Below are positions 10,157-35,842 of a stretch of 64,000 nucleotides of DNA, piece after piece; the first letter of the stretch is position 1; each line of letters starts with the position of its first letter. A program made the translations under genes and the position numbers. The notes under the pieces are model-generated. The model was given only the letters and a program-made list of their open reading frames with translations, had not been told where the DNA came from and searched no databases. This DNA is from Buttiauxella izardii (GTDB lineage: Bacteria > Pseudomonadota > Gammaproteobacteria > Enterobacterales > Enterobacteriaceae): assembly GCF_003601925.1 (NCBI RefSeq), contig NZ_QZWH01000006.1, forward strand, positions 186,001-250,000, given 5' to 3'.

Positions 10157-10465
10157 TATCCGCTGGCCTCAGAAGTTGAGGCCAATAAATAATCACCATG
10201 CAAACAACAATATACAGATAAATCTTAATCAGCGGCTTTATCCCGTCGGCGTCTTACTATATACTCTCTACATAATTCCTTTAAAATCATCGCGTTGTTA
10301 TATCTTGTTGCAATTATCCTACGCTTTATCCTTATTCTCTTCATAATTGCTGCAAATTTGTTTTTTCCCCTTTCAATGCTTTACCGATGCGCACTATTCC
10401 TTGACGCTTAACCCCGTACACTTAATTTCGTCAACGCGGCAAACCCTGTCGTAATTATAAAATTA
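10157..10465. promoter_or_regulatory. astE-spy intergenic region with candidate envelope-stress sites
   Basis: AT-rich stretch without a supported gene. At 10164-10184 TGGCCTCA/TGAGGCCA forms an 8-base stem with a 5-base loop just after astE, but no T-run follows, so it is at best a weak terminator or a 3'-end stabiliser. E. coli spy is activated by BaeR and CpxR. Two stretches resemble the BaeR consensus TTTTTCTCCATDATTGGC: 10334-10351 (13 of 18 matches) and 10362-10379 (about 12 of 18). I could not assign a clear -10/-35 pair for spy. Confidence 0.4.
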
Positions 10466-10603: not shown

Positions 10604-11092
10604 ATGCGTAAACTAACTGCTCTATTTGTTGCTTCAACTCTGGCTCTGGGCGCGGCGAACCTGGCTCATGCAGCTGACACCACCACGACCACAGCGGCAA
10701 AAACCGACGCGCCGATGATGCACCATAAAGGCATGCGCGGCGGCCATCACGATATGATGTTTAAAGATTTGAATTTGACGGATGCGCAGAAACAGCAAGT
10801 GCGCGACATCATGAAAGAGCAGCGCGGTAAAATGGAGCGCCCATCAGTAGAAGAACGCCGTGCGGCCCATAACATTATCGCCAGCGACAGCTTCGATAAA
10901 GCCAAAGCCCAGGCGCAAGTGGATAAAATGGCCGAGCAGAACAAAGCTCGCATGATGGCTCATATGGAAACGCAGAATAAGATCTACAACATTCTGACGC
11001 CTGAGCAGAAAAAACAATTTAATGCCAATTTTGAGAAGCGTCTGACAGAACGTCCTCAGCATGAAGGTAAAATGCCTGCTGATCAGGAATAA
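10604..11092 (+). CDS. spy: Spy, periplasmic ATP-independent chaperone
   Basis: Small periplasmic chaperone of the Spy/CpxP family, induced by envelope stress and known to suppress aggregation. A 23-residue signal peptide (MRKLTALFV...AHA) precedes a Thr-rich and His/Met-rich segment, then the helical LTxxQ-type domain: LNLTDAQKQQVRDIMKEQ near 56-73 and its second repeat ILTPEQKKQFN near 132-142. At 162 residues it matches the usual size. It sits between the ast operon and the hut locus, flanked on both sides by ERIC elements, and ends in a strong terminator. Paralogue CpxP is excluded by the gene neighbourhood. Confidence 0.95.
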   Translation: MRKLTALFVASTLALGAANLAHAADTTTTTAAKTDAPMMHHKGMRGGHHDMMFKDLNLTDAQKQQVRDIMKEQRGKMERPSVEERRAAHNIIASDSFDKAKAQAQVDKMAEQNKARMMAHMETQNKIYNILTPEQKKQFNANFEKRLTERPQHEGKMPADQE

Positions 11093-31637: not shown

Positions 31638-32396
31638 ATGAATTTTGTTAAGACAGTACCGGCTGCAATTTTGCTGACCGGAAGTGCGCTTTTAAGTCAC
31701 TTTGCAATTGCAGATAATTCGGTTTTCACTGTCATGGATGACCCAGCTACTGCTAAAAAGCCTTTCGAAGGTAACCTGAATGCGGGCTATTTGGCTCAAT
31801 CAGGTAACACCACGAGTTCCTCGCTGACGGCGAACACCAACATGACCTGGTATAACACCTCTACCGCATGGTCAATATGGGGTAATGCGAACAACACTTC
31901 TGCGAACGATCAGCGCTCTTCTGAGACTTACGCAGCGGGTGGTCGTAGCCGTTACAATATGACAGACAGTGATTATCTGTTTGGCCAGGCAAGCTGGTTG
32001 ACTGACCGCTTCAACGGCTATCAAGCTCGTGACGTACTCACCGCGGGTTATGGTCGCCAGTTCCTGAGCGGGCCGGTGCACAGTCTGCGTGTGGAATTTG
32101 GTCCGGGTGTTCGTTATGACGAGTACACTGACGGTGAGCATAAAACTCAGGCTCTGGGTTATGCGTCCGGTATCTACAACTGGCAGTTGACTGATAACGC
32201 CAAATTTATCCAGGGCGTTTCTGTGCTGGGTAGTGAAGATACAACCGTGAACTCCGAAACGGCGCTCGAAGTGGCAATTAATGAGCACTTTGGTTTACGT
32301 GTTGGCTATAACGTCACCTGGAACTCCAATCCGCCAGATTCTGCTCCGGAACATACAGACCGCCGTACCGCGATTACTCTTGGCTATAAGATGTAA
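31638..32396 (+). CDS. ydiY: YdiY, acid-inducible outer-membrane-type DUF481 protein
   Basis: 252 residues with a signal peptide ending near HFAIA-DNSVF, followed by a beta-rich DUF481 domain (alternating aromatic strands: EGNLNAGYLAQSGNTTSSSL near 48-67, YLFGQASWLTDRFNGYQARD, HFGLRVGYNVTWNSNP) and a terminal YKM. The family is predicted to be outer-membrane beta-barrel-like; the function is unknown. The E. coli neighbour pfkB that should precede it is missing: the 242-base gap upstream contains no coding remnant I can recognise. Confidence 0.92.
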   Translation: MNFVKTVPAAILLTGSALLSHFAIADNSVFTVMDDPATAKKPFEGNLNAGYLAQSGNTTSSSLTANTNMTWYNTSTAWSIWGNANNTSANDQRSSETYAAGGRSRYNMTDSDYLFGQASWLTDRFNGYQARDVLTAGYGRQFLSGPVHSLRVEFGPGVRYDEYTDGEHKTQALGYASGIYNWQLTDNAKFIQGVSVLGSEDTTVNSETALEVAINEHFGLRVGYNVTWNSNPPDSAPEHTDRRTAITLGYKM

Positions 32397-32403
32397 TTGG
32401 CTA

Positions 32404-32430
32404 AGCCGGGGAATACCCGGCTTTATTGTT
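32404..32430 (+). terminator. Terminator of ydiY
   Basis: AGCCGGG/CCCGGCT stem with a GAATA loop followed by TTATTGTTTT, seven bases after the ydiY stop. Confidence 0.85.
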
Positions 32431-32664
32431 TTATATTACCATTACGTGCTAATATAATTATGGCCCGCGGTTTTATTTTAATTAAAAATGAAATCCAAAA
32501 CACTTTCTCCATAATTTCTCCTTAATCAGTGTTTTAGTCATATCTTCTGTATATTTGACACGAATTGATAAATAAACACCCTTGTCAAAAGTGTGATCTG
32601 GATCTACTCTTGTTTTGTGGCGAGTTAATAACTTGCTGGTCCACTAAATAAGAGAATAAAGAAT

Positions 32665-32895
32665 ATGAAAAATATTAAATATGCTACTATAGCCGTTGCC
32701 CTTTCGGTGCTTTCATTTGGTGCATTTGCTGCAGCACCTACAGCTACCACTACAACAGAAACTGCTCCATCCTCCGTATGGCATGCGGCAGATATCGAAG
32801 CCGGCTCAAATATTCAGCCTGGCGCGCAATCTACAGGTCAATCTATGGATGATGCGTTCAATGTCCATACCCTGGTAGCAGGTGATTGGTCATAA
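32665..32895 (+). CDS. Small exported protein of unknown function
   Basis: 76 residues. MKNIKYATIAVALSVLSFG is a typical Sec signal with cleavage near AFA-AAPT, leaving about 53 residues: a Thr/Ala-rich linker (APTATTTTETAPS) and an acidic, Gln/Gly/Ser-rich tail ending HTLVAGDWS. No cysteines occur. The signal resembles that of small YhcN/DUF1471 proteins, but the rest does not match that fold, so I do not assign it. ATG follows AGAGAATAAAGA, and the gene has its own terminator. The upstream DNA is AT-rich, and TGTGATCTGGATC at 32592 resembles the left half of a CRP site. There is no counterpart in the E. coli order. Confidence 0.72.
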   Translation: MKNIKYATIAVALSVLSFGAFAAAPTATTTTETAPSSVWHAADIEAGSNIQPGAQSTGQSMDDAFNVHTLVAGDWS

Positions 32896-32967
32896 TTGCA
32901 CTAAATTTTATTATCCTCGTATGCGGTAAAGATAATTGATCGCTCAATTTAAGTGACGCATAAAATA

Positions 32968-32998
32968 AAAAGCCGAGCATGAAGCCCGGCTTTTTTAC
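32968..32998 (+). terminator. Terminator of the small exported-protein gene
   Basis: AAAAAGCCGAGC and GCCCGGCTTTTTT form a stem with one internal mismatch and an ATGAA loop, ending in a six-T run. Confidence 0.85.
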
Positions 32999-33009
32999 GT
33001 CTTATTATT

Positions 33010-33366
33010 TGTGCCACTATCCAGATTGGTATTTAGTTGAAACTTTAGGGGAGCTTATTAATAGTGACTATTGTGTCAGCGTTTTAATTAATAAGGATGA
33101 CTAACCAGTGCTATTAAAGTAGTGATAAAACAGGTGGTTATTCTTATTGTCAGATAATGCATTGCCATTGCAAGGCGCGACAATCCCTCCCGAAAGTGAT
33201 AGTATTCTCAACCGTCGCGAAGCAGTGAACGACACGCTCGCGCATAAATTGTGCAATCGGCCTTGCAATTGTAGGTGAGATGACTGCACAACCAATTGAA
33301 ACTAAAGCAAAATAAACGTTGCATGTGATCTTACGTGTGGGTCACCACTGCAAATAAGGACTTATA
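33010..33366 (+). promoter_or_regulatory. thrS promoter and translational operator
   Basis: The stretch before thrS has no gene. Its last 60 bases closely match the E. coli thrS operator: GTGATC-TTACGTG-TGGGTCAC (33325-33345) is a hairpin with CGT in the loop, a mimic of the tRNA-Thr anticodon arm that ThrS binds to repress its own translation. AAGGA precedes the ATG by six bases. A TAGTATTCT near 33200 could be the -10 box. The part before about 33150 shows nothing I can assign. Confidence 0.75.

Positions 33367-35842
<2,476 letters not shown>

Follow-up and report, generated by a model that had tools for sequence, protein, structure and literature searches.

The window, a stretch of 64,000 nucleotides from a Buttiauxella izardii contig (NZ_QZWH01000006.1, positions 186,001 to 250,000), carries a small gene at 32665-32895 between ydiY and thrS. 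The upstream neighbor ydiY (31638-32396; DUF481, Pfam 5.9e-57) was named from synteny and annotated records, and thrS starts downstream at 33367. The following features were assigned to the interval.

32403-32423: terminator-like hairpin after ydiY, between ydiY and the small gene (from a scan)
32506-32525, plus strand: BaeR-type tandem repeat TCTCCATAA-TT-TCTCCTTAA in 11-bp phase, ending 139 bp before the start codon
32554-32574, plus strand: second conserved block, TTTGACAC...TAAATA (10-base averages of majority frequency of 0.79-0.91 against a regional mean of 0.71, 35 rows)
32582-32610, plus strand: putative core promoter, with -35 TTGTCA (32582-32587), a 17-bp spacer and -10 TACTCT (32605-32610)
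32592-32607, plus strand: CRP/FNR-like imperfect inverted repeat TGTGATCTGGATCTAC in the promoter spacer (from the sequence and its conservation in 35 rows)
32650-32656, plus strand: Shine-Dalgarno-like AAGAGAA (from the sequence; conservation 0.90 over 32650-32659)
32665-32895, plus strand: coding sequence, 76 aa, ATG start, predicted exported peptide (homologues and purifying selection)
32665-32730, plus strand: Sec-type signal peptide, residues 1-22, YbiJ/BhsA-like (AFA-A by eye; NCBIfam and hhalign)
32731-32790, plus strand: variable Thr/Ala/Pro linker (length changes in alignment A1; Buttiauxella pN/pS)
32791-32892, plus strand: conserved acidic tail, residues 43-76 (invariant residues, pN/pS, low pLDDT)
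32967-32995, no strand assigned: intrinsic terminator hairpin usable on both strands (scan, folding and a 32-row downstream alignment inspected by eye)

The product is MKNIKYATIAVALSVLSFGAFA|AAPTATTTTETAPSSVWHAADIEAGSNIQPGAQSTGQSMDDAFNVHTLVAGDWS, where the bar marks the cleavage point suggested by the AFA-A end of the signal peptide (residues 20-23, by eye). The mature form would have 54 residues, with a computed pI of 4.05 and mass of 5473 Da. A Thr/Ala-rich linker is followed by an acidic tail with Gly, Ser and Gln, and all three parts described earlier in a sequence-only reading of the locus (Sec signal, linker and tail) are present in the frame.

Homologues were found at 29 distinct named loci in nine genera (Buttiauxella, Dryocola, Kluyvera, Siccibacter, Pseudocitrobacter, Pseudenterobacter, Raoultella, Enterobacter and Klebsiella), with 58-88% identity, and the K. 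pneumoniae homologue WP_002910028.1 is annotated as 'hypothetical protein'; the gene is thus not the unrecognised orphan it had been taken for. The alignment of 30 proteins (A1) contains 24 invariant columns, 18 of which fall in the 34-residue tail (D43, E45-N49, P52, G53, T57, G58, D63-F65, L70-G73 and W75), and length changes are confined to the linker. Among 11 Buttiauxella coding sequences, pN/pS was 0.20 for the whole gene, 0.29 for the signal peptide, 0.39 for the linker (residues 24-41) and 0.08 for residues 42-76, indicating that purifying selection is strongest in the tail. The values for 34 distinct coding sequences, many pairs of which are synonymously saturated, were 0.31 overall and 0.14 for residues 42-76. 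Both pN/pS sets were compiled without L038-L041 and L044 (start uncertain). The former four, with tails ending in WY, are also absent from the YdiY synteny, the upstream alignment and the repeat scoring; three are repeat genomes present as L004, L006 and L007, and the fourth (G005) is covered in the Buttiauxella genome repeat count. A chance frame, the case that the sequence-only reading named as refuting it, is ruled out by the homologues and the pN/pS values. Judged by sequence comparison, 32665-32895 is a genuine, strongly conserved small gene with an exported-type product.

Of 392 genomes sampled from the family, 234 matched the A1 profile somewhere, mostly at the N-terminus only and in YbiJ/BhsA-type proteins. 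Full-length matches, defined as beginning at position 7 or before and ending at 76-77, occurred in at least 53 of the 392, one per genome, and in 21 of 154 genera; at most 14 candidates were scored per genome, and the true number may be slightly higher. Among 295 genomes sampled across the order, six carried full-length matches, all within the same family. Seven additional matches, at E up to 10, came from the search for paralogues in the window's genome; each was N-terminal, and none reached past position 50. As had been noted earlier, the gene has no counterpart in the E. coli order: in K-12, yniD and a frameshifted pseudogene occupy the interval from ydiY to thrS. An intergenic query matched 5,375 of 5,426 E. 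coli genomes, through the thrS leader part only among the matches listed (20 and 60), and a Pseudocitrobacter query had no match in the same 5,426 genomes. The Salmonella ydiY-thrS interval is described, in a passage of PMC5122947, as an island with lpxR. Passages of a Klebsiella outer-membrane and exoprotein study report detection of YdiY and do not name the small gene (PMC4404324). A literature search with the accession, tail peptides and a guessed tag found no paper. Phage cargo was rejected, with 0 matches in 50,697 phage records. A small RNA was rejected as well; Rfam returned seven matches at E up to 1 over 32390-33370 and none at the gathering score (best 25.9 bits vs. 40), and only the hairpin is conserved downstream (by eye).

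The earlier statement that the protein fits no family holds for the tail and fails for the signal peptide. The NCBIfam models YbiJ (5.7e-7) and BhsA (5.8e-7) matched residues 1-31 and 1-33, scoring 30 bits where the cut-offs are 110 and 90, and genome profile matches of this N-terminal type extend to position 43. An hhalign comparison with 17 YbiJ/BhsA-type proteins gave a probability of 98.2% for the whole length, where confidence was high no further than roughly position 31, and 0.1% for residues 30-76 taken by themselves. PF07338 (YdgH_BhsA-like) did not match the 76-aa protein at E up to 10; three of the YbiJ/BhsA-type proteins, the controls L045, L047 and L057, matched it at about 1e-17 (63-65 bits). 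The protein shares with the YbiJ/BhsA/YhcN family (DUF1471; PF07338) a closely similar signal peptide, the length class and the character of a small exported protein, but lacks both the PF07338 match and any profile similarity from residue 30 onward. It plainly combines a signal peptide typical of one family with a conserved tail unrelated to it. Nothing convincing was found for the tail in Pfam, NCBIfam, PHROGs, PADLOC or PDB sequences. AlphaFold2 on A1 gave a mean pLDDT of 52.8 and a pTM of 0.15 with no confident fold, in agreement with the earlier impression of none; such a model fits disorder or folding on a partner and proves neither. Asr and the YbgS-type small periplasmic proteins are presumably likewise small, exported, of low complexity and linked to stress. 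Asr differs in matching weakly over residues 2-43 only (E 0.33, NCBIfam) and in being basic, whereas the 76-aa protein is acidic. With Spy it shares a signal peptide and a Thr/Ala-rich N-terminal segment (by eye), but it is missed by the Spy family model, is half the length of Spy and has no confident fold.

Three blocks are conserved upstream, the first being the repeat at 32506-32525. For the second (32554-32574), a MarA/SoxS/Rob box was considered and rejected, the best match to the consensus lying elsewhere in many rows. The putative core promoter at 32582-32610 was not listed by a sigma-70 consensus scan. Of the 35 rows, 33 have TCTAnnCT no more than 110 bp upstream (TCTACTCT in the window), with a degenerate -35. 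The motif looks like a -10 of sigma-S promoters, whose extended -10 is of the KCTAYACT type, and the earlier guess of stationary-phase expression would agree with it. TGTGA...TCTA, kept in 33 of the 35 rows, is the most conserved upstream stretch (0.86-0.95). A half CRP-like site had been pointed out here, and TGTGA does occupy 32592-32596 as the left arm of TGTGATCTGGATCTAC; its position between -35 and -10 is nevertheless unsuited to activation. Tested against TGTGA-N6-TCACA, the left half is perfect and the right half agrees at 2/5 positions (by eye), with the center between the putative -35 and -10; TGTGATCTGGATCTAC agrees by eye at 7/10 positions with a CRP site and at 8/10 with an FNR site. 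Activation by CRP is unlikely, because a protein bound in the spacer would block polymerase.

The strong terminator reported earlier was confirmed. For the plus strand, the RNA from 32955 to 33000 has a folding energy of -13.7 kcal/mol (z -3.77), equalled by 0 of 200 shuffles, and it ends in a T run. The terminator scan lists the symmetrical hairpin at 32967-32995 on the minus strand only; given the fold and the T run of the plus-strand RNA, it can serve both strands. The picture of a real exported-type gene with its own promoter-like sequence and terminator is borne out by the sequence.

The most informative regulatory feature, on sequence grounds, is the repeat at 32506-32525, which lies outside the coordinates given in the sequence-only reading. 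PMC3799227 quotes two BaeR consensus sequences, TTTTTCTCCATDATTGGC from Nishino 2005 and TCTNCANAA from Yamamoto 2008. The repeat has one mismatch to TCTNCANAA-N2-TCTNCANAA; when the intergenic region was shuffled by dinucleotides, 0 of 400 versions were equally good. It was scored in 35 distinct orthologous upstream regions (the repeat genomes L031, L033 and L035-L037 were not counted), always on the plus strand and 137-160 bp before the ATG; 31 were within two mismatches (4 perfect, 17 with one, 10 with two), 3 had three and 1 had four. E. coli spy, a classic target of BaeSR that encodes a periplasmic chaperone, served as the positive control; its upstream region holds the tandem without any mismatch, which 0 of 400 shuffles equalled. 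A tandem 11-bp BaeR-type repeat arranged as upstream of spy is, by this comparison, the new finding here. The best tandem match upstream of E. coli mdtA, a known BaeR target, had five mismatches, and 272 of 400 shuffles were as good. Scored against the Nishino 18-mer box, the small gene reached 13/18, the window's spy 13, E. coli spy 18 and E. coli mdtA 17. The window's spy (10604-11092; NCBIfam 2.2e-79) is about 22 kb from the small gene. Two tandem copies stand upstream of it, at 10267-10286 and 10338-10357, 71 bp apart and with two mismatches each (1 of 400 shuffles as good).

In the window's genome, 31 places were within two mismatches, compared to 30 for the reversed control, which is no enrichment; within one mismatch there were two, one of them the repeat at 32506-32525, compared to none. 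Across 12 Buttiauxella genomes, 27 places were found within one mismatch and 6 for the control. Two promoters explain 12 of the 27, because 9 precede the small gene (by coordinates) and 3 precede spy (by tblastn); the remaining 15 are without a gene assignment. L132 (G038:C41:22811-22852), from a different family of this order, has TCTACATAA four times without mismatch and in 11-bp phase upstream of an aminotransferase-like ORF (by eye), an array that by its layout is of the OmpR-family type.

The published record leaves room for such a gene. According to PMC3799227, BaeR also shifts the Salmonella sodA promoter, where the matches are looser. The published E. coli BaeR list is short, with eight genes (PMC7657598). 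In K. pneumoniae, an activating baeS mutation raised 41 genes, with spy and mdtA named, and activated bamK, according to PMC13059784; the regulon can therefore exceed the E. coli list. bamK of Klebsiella offers a parallel, being newly placed in the BaeSR regulon by that paper, but it encodes a BamA paralogue and its regulation is backed by RNA-seq, qRT-PCR and GFP fusions, whereas that of the small gene is predicted.

With middling confidence, we propose that the locus is a single-gene transcription unit for a small exported envelope-stress peptide, controlled by BaeSR and stationary phase, whose tail binds one partner; the gene may be a missed part of the BaeSR-type envelope-stress response. 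We infer BaeR binding, sigma-S use, a periplasmic location and partner binding as follows. BaeR-P, the response regulator of BaeSR, would bind the tandem repeat at 32506-32525 and, together with the sigma-S-type core promoter at 32582-32610, would raise transcription when the envelope is damaged and in stationary phase. From a CRP/FNR-family protein bound in the promoter spacer, repression would be more likely than activation. The 76-aa product would pass through Sec, lose 22 residues and become an acidic, disordered periplasmic peptide of about 54 aa. Its 34-residue tail would most likely fold on binding one specific partner, either an envelope protein or a misfolded client, a role guessed from conservation, and the peptide would work beside Spy to help the cell through envelope stress. 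What the sequence itself shows is a conserved gene under purifying selection, its signal peptide and conserved tail, a conserved spy-like tandem repeat and the lack of a confident predicted fold; the homologues in synteny, the selection on the tail and the restriction of length changes to the linker count in its favor. Against the BaeR part count the missing enrichment at two mismatches, mdtA without a tandem pair, the 13/18 Nishino box, the 15 of 27 places without a gene assignment, the 4 of 35 regions with three or four mismatches and the promoter missed by the scan. The repeat also lies about 100 bp upstream of the putative transcription start. Such a distance is far for an OmpR-family activator without help.

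If the proposal is true, E. coli K-12, on which this response has been modeled, lacks an envelope-stress effector found in Klebsiella and its relatives. The effector would be a short peptide, open to testing, whose tail is nearly fixed, and the response it belongs to is linked to efflux pumps and, in Klebsiella, also to BamK, the backup foldase of the outer membrane. A more specific version, speculative and unlikely to hold in full, makes the tail a ligand of the envelope-stress circuit: a BaeR-induced disordered peptide would undergo coupled folding with one conserved envelope partner, be it a sensor, a protease of quality control or the BAM machinery, and tune the response in Klebsiella and relatives; E. 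coli and Salmonella would have lost the gene when foreign DNA replaced it between ydiY and thrS.

It is possible, though rather doubtful, that the peptide serves stationary phase or general stress under sigma-S, perhaps with a CRP/FNR-family protein and without BaeR, the repeat belonging to another OmpR-family regulator. TCTAnnCT in 33 of 35 rows and the spacer block as the most conserved upstream sequence speak for sigma-S. A tandem 11-bp phase is also common to OmpR/PhoB-family sites in general. However, the units of the repeat agree with the BaeR consensus, and spy has this arrangement upstream in E. coli and three relatives. A secreted or cell-surface signaling or public-good peptide, rather than a periplasmic one, is unlikely. 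The small size, acidity, lack of a confident fold and conserved C-terminal stretch after a variable linker would suit it, but the annotated K. pneumoniae neighborhood, where ydiY and thrS are the neighbors, contains no exporter, receptor or processing gene, and the tail is nearly identical across genera, unlike specificity-determining peptides.

It is still less probable that the peptide is a partner or regulator of the neighboring outer-membrane protein YdiY (DUF481). YdiY is upstream in 28 of the 29 named loci, including those with foreign-looking genes after the small gene; the exception, L021, is too near a contig end, and the YdiY match in L013 is split into three pieces. E. coli nevertheless has ydiY without the gene, the terminator-like hairpin at 32403-32423 separates the two, and their adjacency may reflect plain inheritance. 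A decayed YbiJ/BhsA-type (DUF1471) gene with a kept signal peptide and out-of-frame debris as its tail is hardly credible, for all the matches of the first 31-33 residues to the YbiJ and BhsA models and the profile matches up to position 43, given the 18 of 34 invariant tail residues, the pN/pS of 0.08 that contradicts debris and the absence of profile similarity over residues 30-76.

Downstream, the first 200 residues of ThrS were present in the flank examined at 24 of the 29 loci; they were not in that of L010, L014, L016, L021 and L029, the contig of L014 ending soon after the gene. Foreign-looking ORFs were seen by eye at several loci, porin-like in L003 and flagellin-like in L026, both then followed by thrS, and integrase-like in L029 and transporter-like in L032, where the flank examined ends before thrS. 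Because these differing ORFs follow the gene, the ydiY-thrS interval is probably an insertion hot spot before thrS, with the gene staying with ydiY. Plasmid cargo was rejected: the six matching plasmid records are all Klebsiella, and the two inspected show the chromosomal neighborhood, one being 5.4 Mb long. A 128-kb K. pneumoniae record labeled 'plasmid p3' (L087, NZ_CP132641.1) carries the core chromosomal block cls, tonB, pfkB, ydiY, the gene, thrS, infC, pheST and ihfA, and is either a piece cut out of the chromosome or a matter of how the record was assembled. In the window, infC has an apparent ATT start at 35300-35302, as the E. coli gene presumably does too, and for this reason ORF lists restricted to common start codons place infC too far downstream, at 35426.
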